Below are positions 3,502 through 20,820 of a DNA stretch of 31,541 nt, piece by piece. The DNA is from a virus: positions 1-31,541 of the IMG/VR virus record IMGVR_UViG_3300044712_000119, one strand, 5' to 3'. The notes below the pieces were generated by a model. That model saw only the letters and a list, made by a program, of their open reading frames with translations, made no database searches and was not told where the DNA came from. Within the stretch, counting starts at the first letter, position 1. Every line of letters starts with the position of its first letter. The translations under genes were made by a program, and so were the position numbers.

Positions 3502-3761
3502 TGATTACTTCAGGCACACAATCCGTTGGCCCAACCGCAGCGGCGATTGACGGTGTAAGTGCAGCACCGAGCAAAATCAAGATTCGCAACAATGACCAAA
3601 CCAAGACCCTTTACATTGGTGGGCCAACTGTGACTACCGCTAACGGCTTTCCTGTGGACAAGCTGACCACGATTGAGTTTGACCTACCTGCTGGAGAGCA
3701 GATGTGGATGGTGAGCACCGAAAACGGGCACACAGTTTCATGGCTAAGGTTGGTGCAGTAG
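3501..3761 (+). CDS. Small beta-rich head-associated protein (possible decoration or fibre domain)
   Basis: An 86-residue protein with the pattern I-K-I-R-N-N-D…LYIGGPTVTTANGFPV…IEFDLPAGEQMWMVS, seen from memory in many small proteins encoded in head regions of actinobacterial and Firmicutes phages. The alternating hydrophobic pattern suggests a small beta-sandwich. It has no catalytic motif. It lies between portal and protease and its 3' end is overlapped by the next gene. A virion surface or decoration role is an inference from position and composition. Confidence 0.7.
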   Translation: MITSGTQSVGPTAAAIDGVSAAPSKIKIRNNDQTKTLYIGGPTVTTANGFPVDKLTTIEFDLPAGEQMWMVSTENGHTVSWLRLVQ

Positions 3762-5383
3762 TGCCTTATTACATTACAGACAAAGCGCAGGATTGCTCAG
3801 GCTGGGCAGTTACCAAAGAGGATGGCGAAGTCATCGGTTGCCACACAACCAAGCAGGGAGCGATTGACCAAATGGTTGCAGTATCTATTGAAGAAAATCT
3901 TGAGCCAGGTGGAGAGCGTAACGAGTCTGGCCCACCTGCCGTAATCGCAGACATTGACAACACTCTTGTCACCTACCAAGGGCAGAAGATTGACAAGGTT
4001 GCAGATTACCTAGACAGCTTCGATGACACCGAAATTATCATTGTCACCGCTCGCCTAGCCTCAGAGCGTGACGCAACTGTCGCAGAGCTAGACAGCCTAG
4101 ACATTGACTATGACCAGCTATTCATGAAGCCAGATGCCGACACCGACTCAACCGAGTGGAAGAAGCAGACCGCAGAACGCTTGCTGGAAACTTACAATGT
4201 CATGGTTGCAGTTGATGACAACGAGGACATCAGAGCCGCTTATCGTGACCTTGGTATCACTACGGTATCACCGAGCGAAGTGCCTGACTCATCCGACAAC
4301 GAAGATGAAGAGATGCGAGCAGTTGATCTGACACCACCTGCTTACATGAGGGCAGCAGCTCGCAGAGGGCTAGAGTATTACGCAGAGGGGAAGGGTGGCG
4401 ATGGACTGGTTGACCAAACAATCGCTGATGCTAGGAGCATGGCTCAGGGCGAAGTTTCAGAGCGTAAGTGGCGGCTTATCGGCCCTTGGATTGCTCGTCA
4501 CATCGTGGACTTGGATTCTCCTAGTGCTCAGCCTGATTCTCCTGACTACCCTAGTGCTGGTGTTGTCGCAATGCTTCTATGGGGTGCTCCAGCGAATCGC
4601 AGGGGTGCTGAGAGGGCTATGGCCTACGCCGAGGGTGTAGTTGCTAGGCTAGATGCAGAACAAGAACGGAAAGCAAGTATGACCAATCGGGAAACTCGTG
4701 ACTTTGAAACTCAGTTTGAGATCAGAGAATCTGGCGATGGAATGACCTTTGTTGGTTACGCCGCAAAGTTTGACCAGCCATCCGAGAACCTAGGTGGCTT
4801 TGTTGAGTATGTTGAGCGTGGTGCATTTAGTCGCTCGCTCAAGTCTCGCAACGATGTGATGTTGCTGTGGAATCACGATGCAGGTCAGCCACTAGCCTCG
4901 ACCCGTTCAGGCACTATGAAGCTAACCGAAGATGAAATCGGTTTGCGTGTAGAGGCAAAGTTGCCTCAGACTACCCTTGGCAAAGACCTAGCAATTCTGT
5001 TGCGTGATGGAATTGTCGGCAAGATGTCATTTGGCTTCAATGTCATCAAAGACGCTTGGAACTCAGAGGGCACAGAACGCCGCCTGAAGTCTGTTCGCTT
5101 GTTCGAAGTATCAGCAGTCGTATGGCCTGCCTACACCTCAACTGAGGCATCTGTGCGTGGACTAGACAAGGTTGCTCAGCGAGCTTCGGTTGATGCCGAT
5201 GAGTTGGCTGATGTTATGCTAAGGATTGAGGAAGGTGCAGACCTAACTCCTGACCAGGCAGAGCTAATGAAGTCGGTTGTCGAGAGACTAGCACCTGCAC
5301 CAGAAGCATCTACTGAAGAACCACAACCATCGCTACTCGCTATCAAGCAGAAGCAACTTGACCTGCTACTGAAAAGGATCTAA
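3704..5383 (+). CDS. Three-part prohead protease: DCSGWAV domain + HAD-like phosphatase + HK97 (S78) protease
   Basis: This 559-residue protein is over twice the usual protease length. Residues 30-60 hold a small DCSGWAV…GCHTTK…A domain found in several actinophage head proteins. Residues 79-190 are HAD-like: DIDNT (83-87), VTAR (114-117), a lysine at 142 or 153-154, and VDDNED (170-175). A helical block (about 205-325, GLEYYAEGKGGDGL … GWYPSAG-like … LLWGA) follows. Residues 326-559 are the S78 prohead protease with H391 (LLWNHD), S442 (KMSFGF) and E468 (LFEVS), which matures the capsid. The GTG start has GGAG 7 nt upstream but overlaps the previous gene by 58 nt; ATG 3740 or GTG 3761 are alternatives. 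ATG 4679, with GGAAAG upstream, could yield the protease domain alone. Confidence 0.9.
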   Translation: MDGEHRKRAHSFMAKVGAVVPYYITDKAQDCSGWAVTKEDGEVIGCHTTKQGAIDQMVAVSIEENLEPGGERNESGPPAVIADIDNTLVTYQGQKIDKVADYLDSFDDTEIIIVTARLASERDATVAELDSLDIDYDQLFMKPDADTDSTEWKKQTAERLLETYNVMVAVDDNEDIRAAYRDLGITTVSPSEVPDSSDNEDEEMRAVDLTPPAYMRAAARRGLEYYAEGKGGDGLVDQTIADARSMAQGEVSERKWRLIGPWIARHIVDLDSPSAQPDSPDYPSAGVVAMLLWGAPANRRGAERAMAYAEGVVARLDAEQERKASMTNRETRDFETQFEIRESGDGMTFVGYAAKFDQPSENLGGFVEYVERGAFSRSLKSRNDVMLLWNHDAGQPLASTRSGTMKLTEDEIGLRVEAKLPQTTLGKDLAILLRDGIVGKMSFGFNVIKDAWNSEGTERRLKSVRLFEVSAVVWPAYTSTEASVRGLDKVAQRASVDADELADVMLRIEEGADLTPDQAELMKSVVERLAPAPEASTEEPQPSLLAIKQKQLDLLLKRI

Positions 5384-5386
5384 CAC

Positions 5387-5575
5387 ATGGCAAGCAAGGC
5401 ACAAATCAAAGAGACTATTCTCAAGGTTGCAGGTGACCCTATTTCGGGTGTCATCTTTGACCTTGCAGAGGAGTGGGCAGAGGCCATCGTTGCTCTCGAT
5501 GCTCCACAGACTGCGGCTATTGCTCCAGCCGCAACTAAGGAAACCCGTATAACCAAGCCAGAGGAAGTTCGCTAG
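5387..5575 (+). CDS. Small acidic protein, unknown
   Basis: A 62-residue protein beginning MASKAQIKETILKVAGDP with a predicted amphipathic helical N-terminal half (GVIFDLAEEWAEAIVALD) and an alanine/proline-rich, probably disordered tail. It starts 3 nt after the protease stop and is followed by a strong terminator, so it closes the first head operon. Small proteins at this place, just ahead of the capsid gene, are common in actinophages; no function is known to me. Confidence 0.75.
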   Translation: MASKAQIKETILKVAGDPISGVIFDLAEEWAEAIVALDAPQTAAIAPAATKETRITKPEEVR

Positions 5576-5599
5576 ACTCTGCCAAGCTTTAGGGTTTCG

Positions 5600-5642
5600 C
5601 CCCGTCACTCTTTTCCCCTTTCTAGTGGCGGGGTTTTCCTTT
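5600..5642 (+). terminator. Rho-independent terminator before the capsid gene
   Basis: CCCCGTCACT (5600-5609) pairs with AGTGGCGGGG (5624-5633) with one G-T wobble, giving a 10-bp stem, followed by TTTTCCTTT. It separates the terminase-protease operon from the capsid transcript. Confidence 0.85.
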
Positions 5643-5650
5643 ACCCTGAT

Positions 5651-5660
5651 GTATTAGAAT
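5651..5660 (+). promoter_or_regulatory. Putative capsid promoter (-10 TAGAAT)
   Basis: TAGAAT at 5655-5660 lies 22 nt after the terminator stem and about 85 nt before the capsid ATG. No convincing -35 is visible. The leader up to 5745 contains no gene. The motif is shared with the intergenic elements at 19808 and 24965. Confidence 0.45.
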
Positions 5661-5745
5661 AGAAACAACGCTTGCGTGTTAGCACCAGCGTCACAGTTCT
5701 GAGTTAGCTCGGCTGAATAAACAATCATCTAATCTAAGGAGAATC

Positions 5746-6903
5746 ATGTCCGAGACCTTTCTAAAGGCACAGACTGAGGCTCGTGCTCGTGCGTGGGAAG
5801 CTGCTAAGGCACTTCTTGACAACGCTGCTGCTGAGAAGCGTGACCTGACTGCTGAAGAGCAGGTTCAGTTTGACCGCATCAACGCAGACATTGACGAGCG
5901 TGCAGCCGTAATCGAAAACATCAAGTCCATCGAAGAGCGTGAGGCAAAGGCCGCCGAACTATCTCGTGGTCTTGAGATCGCATCCCCAAAGTCTGACTCT
6001 GACCTACTTCGTGCAATCGCTCGTGGTGAGGTTCGTGGTCACAACTTCGAGGCTCGCACCCTAACCCCATCTTCGAACCTAGTTCCAACTGGTTTCTTTG
6101 ACCAGGTTTGGATGAAGGCTCGTGAGGTTGGCCCAATGCTTCGTGTTAGCAATGTTCTAAACACCACCTCTGGTGAGGACATTGTGTTCCCAACCCTAAC
6201 CGCATACAGCTCCGCTGCTCTTGTGGCTGCTGGTGGCACTATCGCTGCAAGCGACCCAACCTTCAGCTCTGTAACCCTAGGCGCATACAAGTATTCATTC
6301 CTTGTTCCTGTTGCTGAGGAATTGCTAATTGACTCTGGTGTGAACCTAGAGGCTGAGTTGGCTAAGGCTGGTGGTAACTCCATCGGTTACGCAGTCAACA
6401 CCGCTCTAACCACCGATGACGGTTCAAGCAAGCCAAACGGTGTAGCTAACGCTGCATCTTCGGCTGTTACTGGAACTGCTGCTGCTGGTGCACCTACTGG
6501 TGATGACATCATCAACCTTTACTACTCGCTAGACGGTGCTGTTCGTGCAGCTCGCAACTTCGCTTTCATGGCGAACGCAACCACCATCTCTAGCATCCGT
6601 AAGCTAAAGGACACCACTGGTCAGTATCTATTCCAGCCAGCTCTATCTGCTGGAACTCCTGACACCCTACTTGGCCGCCCATTGGTCGAGAACCCTGCAA
6701 TGGCTTCTGGAACTTCTGCAAAGTCAATCCTTGCAGGAGACTGGGACGCCTATCGTGTAAGAGTTGCAGGTGGCCTCCAGGTCGCTCAGTCATCCGACTT
6801 CCAATTCAACCTTGGAGTGGTCAACTACCGCTTCCAGATTCGTGTTGACGGTGACTTGCTAGACACCTCTGCTATCAAGTATTACAAGGGCGCAACCGCT
6901 TAG
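5746..6903 (+). CDS. Major capsid protein (HK97 fold)
   Basis: The 385-residue protein begins with a charged coiled-coil delta (scaffold) domain (about residues 1-95, AAEKRDLTAEEQVQFDRINAD), after which the fusion protease upstream would cut near residues 100-110. The remainder has the HK97 shell pattern, including LVPTGFFDQVW, the AELLIDSGVNLE-like spine helix and the C-terminal FRVDGDLLDTSAIKYY-like end. AAGGAG sits at the expected spacing before the ATG. Codons are strikingly uniform (CGT, GGT, GCT), consistent with very high expression. It stands alone between two terminators, as expected for the most abundant virion protein. Confidence 0.95.
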   Translation: MSETFLKAQTEARARAWEAAKALLDNAAAEKRDLTAEEQVQFDRINADIDERAAVIENIKSIEEREAKAAELSRGLEIASPKSDSDLLRAIARGEVRGHNFEARTLTPSSNLVPTGFFDQVWMKAREVGPMLRVSNVLNTTSGEDIVFPTLTAYSSAALVAAGGTIAASDPTFSSVTLGAYKYSFLVPVAEELLIDSGVNLEAELAKAGGNSIGYAVNTALTTDDGSSKPNGVANAASSAVTGTAAAGAPTGDDIINLYYSLDGAVRAARNFAFMANATTISSIRKLKDTTGQYLFQPALSAGTPDTLLGRPLVENPAMASGTSAKSILAGDWDAYRVRVAGGLQVAQSSDFQFNLGVVNYRFQIRVDGDLLDTSAIKYYKGATA

Positions 6904-6924
6904 TAATCACTTACGCAACAGAGA

Positions 6925-6953
6925 ACCCTCGGCAGAAATGTCGGGGGTTTTCT
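6925..6953 (+). terminator. Rho-independent terminator after the capsid gene
   Basis: A 10-bp stem (6925-6934 with 6939-6948, two G-T wobbles) is closed by a GAAA tetraloop and followed by TTTTCT. It ends the capsid transcript and limits read-through into the sugar cassette. Confidence 0.88.
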
Positions 6954-6961
6954 GCTAAGGT
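6953..6961 (+). promoter_or_regulatory. Putative extended -10 promoter for the sugar cassette
   Basis: TGCTAAGGT (TGn plus TAAGGT) starts 5 nt after the terminator stem and 31 nt before the glycosyltransferase ATG. It fits an extended -10 promoter without a needed -35, and matches the terminator-then-promoter layout at 11697 and 19805. Confidence 0.35.
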
Positions 6962-6983: not shown

Positions 6984-8195
6984 ATGGGCAACCCTAAAAA
7001 GCAAGAGCAAATCAACGGTGCTGTGAGCTGGTTCTCAAATGGCATCACACAGCCAACGGGCTACGGACAGCAGTCATGGGAAGTCGTGACCCGCATGAAG
7101 CGTCATGGCATAGATGTAGCCACTATCGCCAACTATGGGCGAGAGGGCGTGAACGGTTTTGTTGACACTCCGTTTGGCAAAGTGCCTGAATACGCAAGAG
7201 GCGTAGACCTTTACAGCAATGACTCTGCTCCTGTGTCTCACGCACATCACATCAGCAAAGACATCACCAAGCCTTCAATGTTTATGACTCTGTTTGACAC
7301 TTGGGTTCTGACCAACCCTGAGTTCGACAAGATTCCTAAGATCGCAAGCTGGACTCCGCTCGACCATGTATCCATGCCACCTGCGGTCAAGAAGTGGCTA
7401 GACAAGCCGAATGTGCTACCAATCGCAATGGCCCCGTTTGGTGTCGAGCAGATGTCAGAAGTTGGCATCGAGTCCACCTACATTCCGCACGCTATTGACA
7501 CTCACATCTTCAAGCCAACCGAGACTATCGAGGGACAGCTCACTCGCCGATTCCTAAATGTCAAAGACGATGACTTCCTGATTGTTGTGAACAGTGCCAA
7601 CAAAGCAAATAAAAGCATCCACAGAAAAAGTTTTGCGGAGTTGTTTTACGGCTTCGCCTTATTCCGCAAGAAAGTTCCAAACGCTTATCTCTACATCCAC
7701 ACCGAGCCAACTGGTGTTTATGGTGGATTTCACCTACCACGCCTGGCTTCTGCCTGTGGTCTGCCAATGGATGCTGTGCTATTCCCTAACCCGATTGACT
7801 ATCGCTTCGGCTTTGAGCGTGAGCACCTAGCCGCAATCTACACAGCCGCCGATGTAGTTGCTCAGCTGTCCTACGGTGGCGGTTACGAGCTACCAATCAT
7901 GGAAGCGCAAGCCTGTGGCAAGCGAGTAATCTCAATCAACTGGACTGCACCGAAAGACCTAGTGGCTGAGGATGGCTACCTAGTCGGCGGTCAGTTGTTC
8001 TGGGATGAGGCTCAACTTGCTTGGTTCAAGATTCCGCACATCGGCTCAATCACTCAGGCACTTGAGAACGCCTACGAGGACACCAAGGCGAACGGATCTC
8101 ACAGCGAGGTAAGCCGTAAGTTCGCCAAGCAGTTTGACGCTGAGACCGTATGGCTTGAGAAGTGGTTGCCATTCCTCAAGGAACACCTGAAGTGA
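6984..8195 (+). CDS. Glycosyltransferase, GT4-like (GT-B fold)
   Basis: A 403-residue cytoplasmic protein from the ATG at 6984, chosen because AGAAAGG lies just upstream (a GTG at 6960 is less likely). YIPHAIDTHIF (166-176) is the linker typical of GT4 enzymes, and GGGYELPIMEAQACG (298-312) matches the nucleotide-sugar E-x7-E region, although the first glutamate position appears to be glycine (299) while E307 is kept. GT4 enzymes transfer sugar from an NDP-sugar to an acceptor with retention. The gene overlaps the GT2-like gene by GTGA. Virion protein or host envelope are possible acceptors. Confidence 0.88.
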   Translation: MGNPKKQEQINGAVSWFSNGITQPTGYGQQSWEVVTRMKRHGIDVATIANYGREGVNGFVDTPFGKVPEYARGVDLYSNDSAPVSHAHHISKDITKPSMFMTLFDTWVLTNPEFDKIPKIASWTPLDHVSMPPAVKKWLDKPNVLPIAMAPFGVEQMSEVGIESTYIPHAIDTHIFKPTETIEGQLTRRFLNVKDDDFLIVVNSANKANKSIHRKSFAELFYGFALFRKKVPNAYLYIHTEPTGVYGGFHLPRLASACGLPMDAVLFPNPIDYRFGFEREHLAAIYTAADVVAQLSYGGGYELPIMEAQACGKRVISINWTAPKDLVAEDGYLVGGQLFWDEAQLAWFKIPHIGSITQALENAYEDTKANGSHSEVSRKFAKQFDAETVWLEKWLPFLKEHLK

Positions 8196-8818
8196 AACTG
8201 ATTGTCCCAGTCCTCAACCGCTATGACTTGCTTCAGCGGATGGTTGACTCGATTGACATTCCGCTTGAGTTGCTGGTGCTCGACAATGGAGATGCCATAG
8301 AAACCCTGAGAGTCCCAGCGTGGGTTGACGCTAGAGTCCTACACCTGCCAACCAATCAGGGCGTGGCAGGTAGCTGGAATCTTGGTATCAAGTTGCTACC
8401 ATTTGAGCCTGTGTGGTTCTTCAGCTCGGCAGACACCGAGTATCAGCCAGGTGCATTGGCGAAGCTTGCAGAGGCAAAGACAGACGAGATAACCCTCAAC
8501 GGCTCATTCCCTTATTGGCAGACCTTTGCAATTGGTGAGGAAGTAGTCAGACGCATCGGGCTATTCGATGAGAACATCTTTCCGATCTACTTTGAGGACA
8601 ACGACTACATGAAGCGAGCAGCCGAGGCAGGGATTACGGTGACGCACATTGACGCACCTGTCCACCACGACAACAGCTCGACCATCAACAGCGATGCCAA
8701 ACTGAGGCAGCAGAACTCTCGCACCTTCTCAGATAATGAGAGGTATTTCAACGCAAAGACCGAGGGCTTGTGGCATTGGTCACTAGATCGCAGAAGGGCA
8801 AACTATTGGCAAAAGTAG
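8192..8818 (+). CDS. Glycosyltransferase, GT2-like (GT-A fold)
   Basis: The 208-residue protein begins at GTG 8192, within the GTGA stop-start overlap and 9 nt after AAGGA. It opens with VPVLNRYDLLQRMVDSI and VLDNGD, the nucleotide-binding strand of GT2 enzymes, has NQGVAGSWNLGI in mid-domain and SSADTEY at the usual DxD place, then GLFDENIFPIYFEDNDYMKR as in rhamnosyltransferase-like GT2 proteins. It is shorter than most GT2 enzymes and lacks membrane segments. Donor and acceptor cannot be read from sequence. Confidence 0.87.
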   Translation: MKLIVPVLNRYDLLQRMVDSIDIPLELLVLDNGDAIETLRVPAWVDARVLHLPTNQGVAGSWNLGIKLLPFEPVWFFSSADTEYQPGALAKLAEAKTDEITLNGSFPYWQTFAIGEEVVRRIGLFDENIFPIYFEDNDYMKRAAEAGITVTHIDAPVHHDNSSTINSDAKLRQQNSRTFSDNERYFNAKTEGLWHWSLDRRRANYWQK

Positions 8819-9813
8819 TAATCACAGGAGTCGCTGGATTCTTAGGCTCGCACCTAGCAGACCGATTCCTCAAGGAAGGTTGGGAAGTTGTCGGCGTAGA
8901 TAACCTACTCGGTGGCTACTTGGACAATGTGCCAGACGATGTGATGTTTGCAGAGCTAGACCTTGTGCATGACCTCGACTTCTTAGAGGAAGTGACCGAG
9001 GGTGCAGACCTATTCATTCACGCTGCTTGCACCGCTTATGAGGGCTTGTCTGTATTCAGCCCGTCACTTGTGGTCAGCAATACCACTCAAGCGACCACCA
9101 ACGCCCTTGTAGCGGCTGTGAACGCCAAGGTCAAGCGGTTTATCTATCTGTCCTCAATGGCTCGCTATGGGGCACAGCAGACCCCATTTCAGGAGTCCTA
9201 CACCCCTAAACCTCAAGACCCTTATGGCATTGCAAAGGTAGCCTCTGAGGAGCTAGTCAAGAACATCTGCGACACTCACAATCTTGAGTGGGTAATCCTT
9301 GTGCCACACAACATCATTGGCCCTCGTCAGAAGTTTGATGACCCTTTCCGCAATGTTGCCTCGATTATGACCAACAGAATGTTGCAGGGCAAGCAACCAA
9401 TCATCTACGGTGACGGCACACAGCAACGATGCTTCAGTTTTATTGGCGATGTAGTCGAGCCAACCTTTGTTGCTTGCACTCAGGATGTCGCTCTGAGCCA
9501 TGTAATCAACATCGGTCCTGATGAGGAGACCATCACCATCAACGAACTTGCAGAGAAGCTTGCAGGGATAATCGGGTTCGACCTAGACCCTATTTACACC
9601 ACAGGCAGACCACAGGAAGTCAAGCTCGCGACCTGCTCCTCAGACAAGGCTAGAGACCTACTCGGCTACGAAACCAAGACAAACCTCGACCAAGGGCTGA
9701 CTGAACTAGTTGAGTGGATCAGCGAGAAGGGCACAAGAGAGTTTGACTACCACCTGCCGATTGAGATTGAGTCACCTAAAGTTCCTGCCACTTGGCGTGA
9801 CCGCCTGATGTAA
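8806..9813 (+). CDS. NAD-dependent sugar epimerase/dehydratase (extended SDR)
   Basis: The 335-residue protein begins at TTG 8806, chosen for the strong GAAGGG 7 nt upstream and because the Rossmann start (VVITGVAGFLGSH, GxxGxxG) follows at once; a GTG at 8770 is the alternative. Catalytic elements SSMARYG and YGIAK (YxxxK) are present, with the GDGTQQRCF substrate-loop region of NDP-sugar epimerases. It would make or convert the donor sugar for the two upstream glycosyltransferases, whose transcript it shares (13-nt overlap). Confidence 0.9.
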   Translation: MAKVVITGVAGFLGSHLADRFLKEGWEVVGVDNLLGGYLDNVPDDVMFAELDLVHDLDFLEEVTEGADLFIHAACTAYEGLSVFSPSLVVSNTTQATTNALVAAVNAKVKRFIYLSSMARYGAQQTPFQESYTPKPQDPYGIAKVASEELVKNICDTHNLEWVILVPHNIIGPRQKFDDPFRNVASIMTNRMLQGKQPIIYGDGTQQRCFSFIGDVVEPTFVACTQDVALSHVINIGPDEETITINELAEKLAGIIGFDLDPIYTTGRPQEVKLATCSSDKARDLLGYETKTNLDQGLTELVEWISEKGTREFDYHLPIEIESPKVPATWRDRLM

Positions 9814-9822
9814 ACTAGAGAC

Positions 9823-10419
9823 ATGGCAATCACTAACGGATACGCAACTCTGGCTCAGGTCAAGTCAGCACTTCGCATCACCGACAATGTTGATGACTCG
9901 CTGCTAGAGATGGCGATTGAGTCTGCCTCTCGTGTCATTGACGAATACACCAACCGCATCTTCTACAACGCTGGAACTGCTGTGCGCTACTACGCACCTA
10001 GCGATGACTTCAATGTTGACACCGATGACTTCATCAGCGTAAGCAGTTTGCAGACTATGAGCGGTAATGACCAGGTGTTCGACACAACTTGGACTTCTAC
10101 TGACTACCAGCTAGAACCGCTGAACGGCTTTGCAGACGGCATCTCTCAGCCTTACAATCACATCCGAGCAGTTGGAAATTACACTTATCTGACCCTCGGC
10201 GGTGAGGCTACCATCAAGCTCACAGCAGTCTTTGGCTGGAACGCTGTCCCAATTCAGGTGACTCAGGCTTGTGTTATTCAGGCATCTCGTATTTACAAGC
10301 GACTTGATTCGCCTCTAGGCATCATCTCTGGTGAGCTTGGATCTATGCGTGTTGGTGCTCGCATTGACCCTGATGTCGCTCAACTTGTTGACTCGCTACG
10401 CAGAATCAGGTTTGCATAG
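9823..10419 (+). CDS. Head-tail connector (gp6-like adaptor)
   Basis: A 198-residue protein with the pattern YATLAQVKSALRI…DDSLLEMAIESASRVIDEYTNR of HK97 gp6/SPP1 gp15-like adaptors, which form the ring below the portal. The N-terminal helical bundle is followed by a beta-rich insert and a C-terminal helical tail (ACVIQASRIYKRLDSP…). It begins 9 nt after the epimerase and resumes the canonical head-to-tail order. Ribosome site is weak. Stop overlaps the next start. Confidence 0.88.
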   Translation: MAITNGYATLAQVKSALRITDNVDDSLLEMAIESASRVIDEYTNRIFYNAGTAVRYYAPSDDFNVDTDDFISVSSLQTMSGNDQVFDTTWTSTDYQLEPLNGFADGISQPYNHIRAVGNYTYLTLGGEATIKLTAVFGWNAVPIQVTQACVIQASRIYKRLDSPLGIISGELGSMRVGARIDPDVAQLVDSLRRIRFA

Positions 10420-11532: not shown

Positions 11533-11669
11533 GTGACAGCTCCCAGCATTGGGAGATTGCTGCCCTAGCCGTAGAGACAGGGATTGCTCCAAGCCTCTTG
11601 TTACAAGAGTCTGAGCGCATGAGGTTCACAATGGCTCGCTACCTAATCTGGCGGGCACAACAAAGGTAA
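11275..11669 (+). CDS. Tail assembly chaperone, long form by -1 programmed frameshift
   Basis: Slipping one base back on CCCAAAA (11514-11520) continues the protein from codon ATC at 11520 for 49 more codons to TAA 11667-11669, a 131-residue fusion. The extension contains HWEIAALAVETGIAPSLLLQ and FTMARYLIWRAQQR, matching the helical downstream domain of chaperones of the lambda G/GT type. That second segment has no good start of its own. A hairpin (CTCCCA 11540-11545 with TGGGAG 11550-11555) lies downstream and may stimulate slippage. Known biology: the ratio of the two forms is needed for tail assembly. Confidence 0.88.
11514..11520 (+). promoter_or_regulatory. -1 ribosomal frameshift slippery site CCCAAAA
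   Basis: The heptamer is read C-CCA-AAA in the zero frame, so both tRNAs can re-pair after slipping to CCC-AAA. It lies just ahead of the short-form stop codon, at the expected place in the tail chaperone gene. Confidence 0.9.
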
Positions 11670-11698
11670 CCACTCCGAAAGGGGTGGTTTTCCTTTTG
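11668..11698 (+). terminator. Rho-independent terminator after the tail chaperone
   Basis: AACCACTCC (11668-11676) pairs with GGGGTGGTT (11681-11689) around a GAAA tetraloop, followed by TTCCTTTT. It overlaps the long-form stop codon and separates the tube/chaperone unit from the tape-measure unit. Confidence 0.85.
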
Positions 11699-11705
11699 GT
11701 AGACT
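11697..11705 (+). promoter_or_regulatory. Putative extended -10 promoter for the tail tip unit
   Basis: TGGTAGACT (TGn plus TAGACT) begins 8 nt after the terminator stem and 18 nt before TATTGGAGAGGTG-type ribosome sequence and the ATG at 11723. Its TTGGTAGA core recurs at 19804. Confidence 0.4.
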
Positions 11706-11722: not shown

Positions 11723-12358
11723 ATGCTGAAGATGCTGTTGACAGGTGCAACGGGGCAACCCTTTTCTGTCAAAGACATTAGGGAACTGCAACGCAAACTA
11801 AGAGCGATTGAGCCATCTCTACGCACAGAGTTTTTGCGTGAGGTAAAGACCATCGGCAAGACTCCTGAAAAAGCCATCAAGTCAGCCATTCCAAATGAAT
11901 CTCCTCTTAGCGGTCTATCAAAGCCAGGTGCAACCTTGCAATGGGGCAAAGCTAAAAAGGGTTCAGGTGGTGCTAAGTCGACCACTATCCGTTTTCGCAC
12001 AAAAGCTGGCGGTAAATCCTTGACCACCACGCTTCTTGGCATCCGAGTCAACTCAGCCGCATCTTCTGTCGCTGACATGGCTGGTCGCTCAGGTCGGTTC
12101 GTTGGTGCAGGTTACAAAGGCTCAGGTCGCTCAAGACCTATTGTTCGCACTTACTCTGATGGATCGCAGTCAGTATCATTTACTAGGACAGCAAGCAAAA
12201 AGGCTGGACAAGCTTTCATCAACAACCTCAATCGAGGTCTATCTAATCGCCCATCTCGTATGGCGTGGAAGGCAGTTGAGAAAGACCTTCCGCAAATCTC
12301 AAAGTCAATTCAGTATGTGGTGGACAAGTGGGCCATCCGAGCAAGCAAAGGTTTCTAA
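11723..12358 (+). CDS. Basic neck/tail completion-like protein (HK97 gp10-like, tentative)
   Basis: A 211-residue, strongly basic protein: helical start (VKDIRELQRKLRAIEPSLRTEFLREVKTIG-like), a glycine/lysine-rich loop and a C-terminal part FINNLNRG…VEKDLPQISKSIQYVVDKW. Size and pattern resemble gp10-type head-tail joining proteins, but such genes normally precede the tube gene; here it lies after the chaperone and directly before the tape measure (TAAATG junction). A minor tail role is therefore also possible. GGAGAGGT gives a strong ribosome site; ATG 11732 is an alternative start. Confidence 0.6.
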   Translation: MLKMLLTGATGQPFSVKDIRELQRKLRAIEPSLRTEFLREVKTIGKTPEKAIKSAIPNESPLSGLSKPGATLQWGKAKKGSGGAKSTTIRFRTKAGGKSLTTTLLGIRVNSAASSVADMAGRSGRFVGAGYKGSGRSRPIVRTYSDGSQSVSFTRTASKKAGQAFINNLNRGLSNRPSRMAWKAVEKDLPQISKSIQYVVDKWAIRASKGF

Positions 12359-19766: not shown

Positions 19767-19803
19767 CCCCTGGTAGTTGCTGCTACGCAGGGGTTTCTTC
19801 TAC
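19767..19803 (+). terminator. Rho-independent terminator, probable late-operon end
   Basis: CCCCTGGTAG (19767-19776) pairs with CTAC (19783-19786) and CAGGGG (19788-19793), with one bulged G, followed by TTTCTTCT. The T-tract points plus-strand, although the nearest plus-strand gene upstream is the endolysin, 790 nt away across the antisense HNH gene. Confidence 0.82.
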
Positions 19804-19804
19804 T

Positions 19805-19820
19805 TGGTAGAATTGTAGCA
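19805..19820. promoter_or_regulatory. Putative bidirectional promoter core
   Basis: Plus strand: extended -10 TGGTAGAAT (hexamer 19808-19813). Minus strand: extended -10 TGCTACAAT (hexamer at 19817-19812). The two hexamers overlap in the near-symmetrical TAGAATTGTA. They could drive the membrane protein at 19835 rightward and the HNH gene leftward. No -35 is apparent for either. Confidence 0.45.
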
Positions 19821-19834
19821 ACTAAGGAGAACCA

Positions 19835-20188
19835 ATGCGTGAAACCATCAAGCAGATAATCGTCAGATCACTAGGTCTTGTCCTTGCAACCTTCTTCGGC
19901 GGAACTGCTATCGGTGCTGTGGCTGGTAACTGGTGGATGGGTTCACTTATCGGTGTCGGTAGCGCCTTTGCCGTAGTCCTAACAACCATCGGTGTTGCTG
20001 TGGCTTGGAAGGGCACTCTGGAGCTGTCTGACATTCAGAACGCTTATCGAGCAGCAGTAGCCAAGTCTGACTCTGAGGCTGTTGAGGATGCCCTAAAGGT
20101 TACTCAGGATGGCAACTTCGACTTTGACGATGTTGTCTATGACGGCGATGATGACCTTTACGATGACGAGCCTGACAAGGTAGCCTAA
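19835..20188 (+). CDS. Small membrane protein, candidate holin
   Basis: A 117-residue protein with CTAAGGAGAACCA before the ATG. Two hydrophobic helices (about residues 9-30 and 33-58, LGLVLATFFGGTAIGAVAG and GSLIGVGSAFAVVLTTIGVAVAW) are followed by LELSDIQNAYRAA, resembling the end of actinophage holins, and a very acidic tail (DGDDDLYDDEPD). A holin role is plausible from topology, but another terminator separates it from the endolysin. Its stop overlaps the convergent WhiB gene. Confidence 0.6.
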   Translation: MRETIKQIIVRSLGLVLATFFGGTAIGAVAGNWWMGSLIGVGSAFAVVLTTIGVAVAWKGTLELSDIQNAYRAAVAKSDSEAVEDALKVTQDGNFDFDDVVYDGDDDLYDDEPDKVA

Positions 20189-20514
20189 CGCAAAGCTCCG
20201 AGCTTGAATCGCTTGACCCTAACTGAGTTCTGGTCAATAGCCTTGTCGAGAGTTGTCTTGCCCTTGCGGATCTCATCCCTCTGATGCGGTGTCAGTCCAC
20301 CCCAAATGCCGTAAGCCTCATCTGCAACAATCGCATACTGAGCGCATAGCCTCTGCACAGGGCATTGACTACAAATCTTCTTTGCTTGGCGTAGCTCGTA
20401 GGATTCGCCGCCTACCTCTGGAAACCATAACTCCCCGTCAACCTCTTGGCAGACTGGTGTCCCATGCTCTTTGATACCTGCTGCTAAGGCTATAAATGCG
20501 TTTTGAACTTTCAT
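20185..20514 (-). CDS. WhiB-family iron-sulfur regulator 1
   Basis: A 109-residue protein with the four WhiB cysteines C22, C48, C51 and C57 (CSQCPVQRLC) that hold a [4Fe-4S] cluster, then GIWGGLT (69-75) and a basic C-terminal tail (RKGKTT…VRVKRFKLGALR) suited to DNA binding. WhiB proteins bind the host primary sigma factor and act as transcription regulators; the mycobacteriophage TM4 WhiB blocks septation and superinfection. Start at ATG 20514. Convergent with and touching the membrane protein gene; downstream of WhiB 2 on the minus strand. Confidence 0.92.
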   Translation of the reverse strand: MKVQNAFIALAAGIKEHGTPVCQEVDGELWFPEVGGESYELRQAKKICSQCPVQRLCAQYAIVADEAYGIWGGLTPHQRDEIRKGKTTLDKAIDQNSVRVKRFKLGALR

Positions 20515-20547: not shown

Positions 20548-20820
20548 TCAAATCCGCTCTGAAGGCAGCGACCCACCCCAGATGCCATGCTTTTGATTGC
20601 TTTCTAATGCGTAATCAAAACATTGTGCCTGGATAGGGCAAGCTCGGCAACCTTTGATTGCCTTAGCGGTTGCGATGACTCTGATCGTAGGGCTCTCTAT
20701 GTCCTCTGGAAACCAAAATTCAGGCTTCCACTCGCAAGGAACTTTGTTACCATTGCGTTGAATAGCGGCTAAGAGTGCGAGGTAATCGCTACTCAATACG
20801 CCAAAATGTCTGAGGGTCAT
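20548..20820 (-). CDS. WhiB-family iron-sulfur regulator 2, short
   Basis: A 90-residue protein with C29, C58, C61 and C67 (CRACPIQAQC) and GIWGGSLPSER (79-89). It stops directly after the WhiB signature, so the basic DNA-binding tail of typical members is missing. It diverges clearly from WhiB 1, sharing FWFPE/LWFPE and the cluster region. ATG 20820 has no clear ribosome site, and TAGGGT lies 9 nt upstream on its strand, so a leaderless or very short leader is possible. Only 32 bp separate it from the divergent exonuclease gene. Confidence 0.88.
   Translation of the reverse strand: MTLRHFGVLSSDYLALLAAIQRNGNKVPCEWKPEFWFPEDIESPTIRVIATAKAIKGCRACPIQAQCFDYALESNQKHGIWGGSLPSERI

Follow-up and report, generated by a model that had tools for sequence, protein, structure and literature searches.

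DNA comparisons among relatives of an HK97-type tailed phage demonstrate that the genes lying between a capsid-linked glycosyltransferase (GT1) and the head-tail connector are replaced as one unit between phages, and GT1 itself has apparently never been lost in this large lineage. The phage is represented by a 31.5-kb IMG/VR virus record, the whole of which we refer to as the window. Our preferred reading, which we hold to be probable though well short of secure, is that of a two-tier virion-glycan locus, in which GT1 supplies a core sugar and an exchangeable module supplies its decoration. Glycosylation of phage virions is known from a few mycobacteriophages and has been debated mainly in connection with animal antibodies. 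Aquatic phages whose hosts are planktonic actinobacteria are not exposed to such antibodies, and a constant capsid-linked transferase accompanied by a repeatedly swapped sugar module would imply that the surface sugars of phages are under selection in nature.

Gene layout and transcription signals

The major capsid gene (positions 5746 to 6903, on the plus strand like all features of the locus; HK97 fold, PF05065 at 5.8e-60, phrog_10) is the invariant left neighbor of the locus. An earlier sequence-only reading had called three overlapping genes behind it, two glycosyltransferases and an epimerase, and ORF calls and family searches agree on all three, coordinates included. GT1 (6984 to 8195, ATG start) matches Glyco_trans_1_4 (PF13692, 7e-7) and phrog_2170 (3e-35). 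GT2 (8192 to 8818, GTG start) overlaps the end of GT1 by 4 bp and matches Glycos_transf_2 (PF00535, 1.1e-8) and phrog_29879 (3e-45), and an NDP-sugar epimerase/dehydratase of the extended SDR type (8806 to 9813, TTG start; PF01370, 2.8e-46) overlaps the end of GT2 by 13 bp. All three genes point in the same direction, and the gp6-like head-tail connector (9823 to 10419, ATG start; PF05135, 3e-8; phrog_442) begins 9 bp past the epimerase. GT2 and the epimerase together fill an exchangeable slot (8192 to 9813), of which the connector is the invariant right neighbor. Membrane segments are absent from the locus enzymes, whose maximum 19-residue hydropathy is 0.9 to 1.25. Among close relatives, dN/dS indicates purifying selection (0.07 to 0.09 for GT1, 0.06 to 0.09 for GT2, and 0.09 to 0.17 for the epimerase), with similar values for the capsid gene.

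The host is probably a planktonic member of the Microbacteriaceae, as judged from the nearest isolate, Pontimonas phage phiPsal1 (MG835450), and from the closest cellular homologue of the epimerase, found in Candidatus Aquiluna (66%). Two features elsewhere in the window may be recorded here. The prohead protease (3704 to 5383; Peptidase_S78 at residues 338 to 489) carries an N-terminal HAD phosphatase domain resembling the polynucleotide kinase 3'-phosphatase (PF25109; phrog_415, 4e-17). This domain is also present in three relatives (L032, L005, and, as Acid_phosphat_B, L069) and was not detected in phiPsal1; the joining of a nucleic-acid-end enzyme to a capsid protease is unusual. Two adjacent WhiB-like regulators are encoded on the minus strand (20185 to 20514 and 20548 to 20820).

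The sequence-only reading had also given the locus a terminator upstream and a promoter-like element, and both are borne out. An intrinsic terminator, composed of a stem-loop with a T-run behind it, follows the capsid gene at 6918 to 6954; its predicted folding energy is about -27 to -31 kcal/mol (z = -6.1). A simple consensus terminator scan missed this hairpin. Every relative that was folded forms a hairpin in this position, with differing stem sequences, and in the pooled alignment, three stem pairs are changed on both sides with pairing kept. RNAalifold returned a weak consensus from that alignment (-4.2 kcal/mol), since the stems do not line up from one clade to the next; our claim of conservation rests on the individual folds. 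Directly behind the hairpin stands a putative extended -10 promoter element, TGCTAAGGT (6953 to 6961). The relatives provide 46 distinct sequences for this intergenic stretch, and 44 of them conserve the element as TGCTANNNT. TANNNT is the extended -10 type used by actinobacteria. A scan for sigma-70 -35/-10 promoters found nothing in the capsid-GT1 gap. Across the window, the TGCTANNNT pattern is depleted, with 28 occurrences observed and 51 expected.

The conserved hairpin and TGCTANNNT ahead of GT1 suggest that a new transcript, driven by the predicted promoter, probably starts at GT1 and runs into the neck and tail genes. The same arrangement of a hairpin and TGNTANNNT precedes the genes at 11723 and 19835, which suggests a common terminator-promoter punctuation at the starts of transcription units in this phage. 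Terminator hairpins directly before a TANNNT or TGNTANNNT element were noted at 5585 to 5650, 11660 to 11705, and 19770 to 19813. In the first locus sets, only one long gap between capsid and GT1 stood out: relative L261 has an insertion of about 540 bp there (positions 5465 to 6000), with no convincing ORF.

GT1 as a core gene of the lineage

Searches of viral contigs with capsid and GT1 gave 97 relatives with enough sequence (an almost full-length capsid gene plus 250 bp or more beyond it), and GT1 directly follows the capsid gene in every one. GT1 itself had been the query for part of this set. A search with the GT2 family is less prone to that bias: upstream of GT2 it has GT1 in 66 of 69 loci and the capsid gene in 55 of 56, and downstream the connector in 45 of 45. 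All these locus counts include some closely related contigs; the GT2-family search reaches relatives with capsid identity down to about 35 to 50%. Comparison with relatives lacking the cassette had been proposed, and no relative without GT1 was present among the 97. GT1 is also under the same constraint as the capsid gene. The view that a cassette had been inserted here, breaking a conserved capsid-connector order, is therefore wrong for this lineage and was rejected: GT1 belongs to the core genes, and cassette behavior begins only behind it. What survives of the proposal is a sugar-modification locus with its own transcription start, which probably acts on the virion.

The two transferases differ in fold, as had been predicted, with GT1 assigned to GT-B and GT2 to GT-A by AlphaFold2 and Foldseek. 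The GT1 model (pLDDT 90.8) matches 3OY2, MshA, PimB', and PimA. Its best PDB match by both profile (1e-8 over most of the GT1 length) and fold (1.3e-16, TM 0.72) is 3OY2, the B736L protein of chlorovirus NY-2A. GT1 has the GT4-like C-terminal nucleotide-sugar domain, with PF13692 above its cut-off, and departs from the EX7E motif: the first Glu is replaced by Gly299 and the second, E307, is kept, with another Glu at 302, three residues past G299 (residues 299 to 307, window 7878 to 7904). All sampled GT1 proteins of the window's clade and of a second clade carry GGG[YF]E[LI]P...E, and those of phiPsal1, a Microcystis phage, and outer relatives have the canonical GEGFG[IV]P...E. The variant does not change across dozens of loci that are under purifying selection, and so looks like a working form rather than decay. 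We call GT1 GT4-like, with a variant motif, and stop short of placing it in GT4; the Gly in place of the first EX7E Glu leaves some doubt about its activity.

Replacement of gene modules in the slot

The GT2 model (pLDDT 85.5) has a GT-A fold, and its nearest PDB structure is the WrtF fucosyltransferase. Besides the PF00535 match, GT2 has the acidic nucleotide-sugar motif expected of such enzymes, with SAD at the DXD position and an ED.D motif. The best PDB match of the epimerase is the UDP-glucose 4-epimerase 4ZRM (5.6e-42); it scores 102 bits against a GalE equivalog cut-off of 262 (TIGR01179) and reaches no other NCBIfam equivalog cut-off. We had considered assigning the sugar through the neighbors of the cellular epimerase and dropped the attempt: the genes next to the Aquiluna homologue encode an ABC transporter, a nucleoside hydrolase, and a sigma factor and do not form a sugar cluster. 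A close epimerase homologue occurs in only 2 of 150 sampled genomes, the sample being centered on that Aquiluna genome.

Across the relatives, at least 10 other gene sets occupy the place of the window's pair between GT1 and the connector; a census was made of the 70 in which the whole slot is present. Slots are 0.7 to 2.6 kb long, and nearly every one contains at least one glycosyltransferase or methyltransferase. Type A, as in the window, combines GT2 with the epimerase (17 relatives). Type B pairs a separate homologous GT2 clade with a TagD/RfaE-like cytidylyltransferase (15 relatives), and type C pairs another GT2-like enzyme with an RmlD-like reductase (29 relatives, four with added genes). 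Type E consists of a methyltransferase (5 relatives), and a GT2-like enzyme stands alone in three slots; the census also takes in the methyltransferase and GT2 of phiPsal1. Distant relatives bring further glycosyltransferases and methyltransferases. In two slots (L053 and L057), a type C set has a further GT2-like gene plus a cytidylyltransferase behind it, which gives the impression of two stacked modules.

Epimerase-partnered and cytidylyltransferase-partnered GT2 proteins form two tree clades with no exception. The pairing of GT2 with an epimerase is nevertheless not obligatory, since L284 and phiPsal1 have this GT2 type without one. The suggestion that the co-encoded epimerase supplies a specific, phage-made sugar donor thus fits this phage and does not extend to the lineage: elsewhere the place of the epimerase is taken by a cytidylyltransferase, a reductase, or methyltransferases, and in one relative the same GT2 occurs with no epimerase.

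Exchange is most clearly seen in closely related pairs. Two relatives (L087 and L085) share 95.9% DNA identity through the capsid gene and GT1; their similarity ends just past the GT1 stop codon and returns 22 bp before the connector. Another pair (L007 and L032) keeps 98.2% identity for 4.3 kb, as far as the last GT1 codon, and similarity returns 7 bp before the connector. The converse is found in L283, whose capsid and GT1 proteins are 47% and 49% identical to those of the window and whose GT2 and epimerase are both 77% identical; DNA similarity is continuous from base 8193, at the GT1/GT2 junction, into the tail genes. In L284, a GT2 with 72% identity to that of the window lies between flanks near 50%. 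Metagenome chimeras were considered as a cause of these swaps and rejected, because the module types recur in many contigs and the breaks fall at gene borders.

On the GT1 tree, the module type changes at least 15 times, where five changes would suffice; eight changes fall in the nearest clade and six in the second. Each GT2 clade spans both main core clades, whose GT1 proteins are only about 60% identical. It follows that the module polymorphism either predates the separation of the core clades or has crossed it repeatedly. It is conceivable that the locus is serotype-like, with donor-plus-transferase modules held as a balanced polymorphism that would predate the clade split, be selected for a variable virion glycan, and be shuffled at fixed gene borders behind the invariant capsid-linked transferase. 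We offer this extension tentatively, as somewhat less than an even bet.

Acceptors, rival readings, and known systems

In the two-tier reading, GT1, a soluble and cytoplasmic GT-B enzyme, would attach an invariant first sugar to a protein of the virion before assembly or in the course of it; the capsid protein is the likeliest target. We propose this step because of the core and outer-sugar logic of chlorovirus glycans and the virion glycosylation of mycobacteriophages. The module would provide a second step, its GT-A transferase adding a different sugar, polyol phosphate, or methyl decoration, and would usually bring an enzyme for donor synthesis, here the NDP-sugar epimerase. A swap could then give the particle surface a new outer glycan, or "glycotype," with the capsid and core enzyme untouched. 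The presumed order of the two steps derives solely from which gene is constant, and the acceptor and donors named here are putative.

The acceptor might instead be another virion protein, such as the tail tube, a tail fiber, or a decoration protein, with the glycan serving adsorption. This sub-case of the two-tier reading, not exclusive of it, appears rather doubtful to us: both capsid and tail tube are glycosylated in mycobacteriophages (PMC12363180), and the terminator behind the capsid gene means that the transferase genes are apparently cotranscribed with neck and tail genes and not with the capsid gene, but GT1 adjoins the gene for the most abundant possible target. The main rival places the acceptor outside the particle. 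The enzymes would modify the host wall late in infection, blocking superinfection or re-adsorption of progeny to debris, and module diversity would track host wall types. Glycosyltransferases in a variable structural-region island of pelagimyophages have been interpreted in this way (PMC7029224), the Pontimonas genome has many wall glycosyltransferases with frequent horizontal transfer (PMC6106888), and both the TagD-type cytidylyltransferase and the RmlD-like reductase are wall-polymer enzymes. We nonetheless judge modification of the wall to be unlikely. The locus enzymes are soluble and without membrane anchors; the locus stays tied to the capsid gene and is apparently transcribed into late neck and tail genes, which is late for superinfection exclusion; and a constant core enzyme across very diverse phages would be unexpected if host walls differ.

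Glycosylation of phage DNA against restriction, which has been proposed for freshwater actinophage glycosyltransferases (PMC10202952) and would sit well with the DNA methyltransferase encoded in the window, is very improbable here: the genes lie within the late structural region, neither GT1 nor GT2 matches the DNA-glucosyltransferase families, and a scan of the 20 other ORFs turned up no enzyme for a hydroxylated base or any other base that could accept a sugar. Similarly slim is the chance that the slot is a neutral hotspot for any gene, its sugar theme mirroring what the lineage happens to carry. A few slots do have extra genes of no obvious sugar role (a 96-aa ORF in L022), and some slot ORFs lack a Pfam match, but the slot counts, with a glycosyltransferase or methyltransferase nearly everywhere, already make this reading unlikely, and so do partner enzymes that match the GT2 clades and dN/dS values of 0.06 to 0.17. 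For the two-tier reading, the near-identical phages with different modules are ready-made natural pairs for testing the role of surface sugars.

Neither glycosylated virions nor glycosyltransferase genes among the structural genes of phages are new. In the literature we searched, which fell short of most subscription papers, we found no account of an invariant transferase tied to the capsid gene with an exchangeable donor-plus-transferase slot behind it. The mycobacteriophages Che8, Corndog, and Myrna have glycosylated virion proteins (PMC12363180), and the head genes of Corndog include two glycosyltransferases, a putative N-acetylglucosaminyltransferase, and a methyltransferase (PMC4351075). 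Like the window's phage, these are tailed phages of actinobacteria with several GT4- and GT2-sized glycosyltransferases (Che8 gp108 to gp110, Corndog gp36 to gp38). However, the genes lie at the 3' end in Che8 and between portal and protease in Corndog, rather than between capsid and connector, and exchange of donor-plus-transferase modules is absent from the descriptions found. The mycobacteriophage precedent to which the sequence-only reading pointed holds for function and not for homology: hhalign gave a probability of 0.2% each for Che8 gp108 and gp109 against GT1, and of 16% (gp109) and 0.2% (gp110) against GT2, and tblastn returned no mycobacteriophage among its matches. Nor does the locus resemble Gtr-type prophage seroconversion of O antigen or wall, there being no membrane-embedded glycosyltransferase and no integrase among the ORFs scanned.

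Chlorovirus capsid glycans combine a conserved core with virus-specific outer sugars, some of them methylated (PMC9614988, PMC7019647). Glycosylation of the capsid protein Vp54 in these viruses, which encode the GT4 enzyme B736L/A546L, resembles the proposed division between GT1 and slot in being cytoplasmic and virus encoded, with a constant core and a variable outside. Chloroviruses are eukaryotic giant viruses, however, and a capsid-linked module slot is absent from the descriptions of them that we found. B736L binds the GDP form of mannose best, and mannose is absent from that virus's capsid glycan (PMC9614988); its own acceptor is not known, and both points count against the two-tier reading.

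The nearest isolate is phiPsal1, in which the capsid gene, a group I glycosyltransferase, a GT2, and a neck protein occur in the same order, with capsid, GT1, and GT2 about 45 to 50% identical to those of the window. It differs in its slot, which holds a reverse-strand methyltransferase and GT2 with no epimerase, and in the canonical EX7E of its GT1. The islands of pelagimyophages and cyanomyophages likewise place a variable, glycosyltransferase-rich region among the structural genes of aquatic phages. Those islands span tens of kilobases with tail fibers and are interpreted in terms of host recognition and O-chain change, whereas the lineage of the window has a compact slot of 0.7 to 2.6 kb, a fixed glycosyltransferase ahead of it, and clean swaps.
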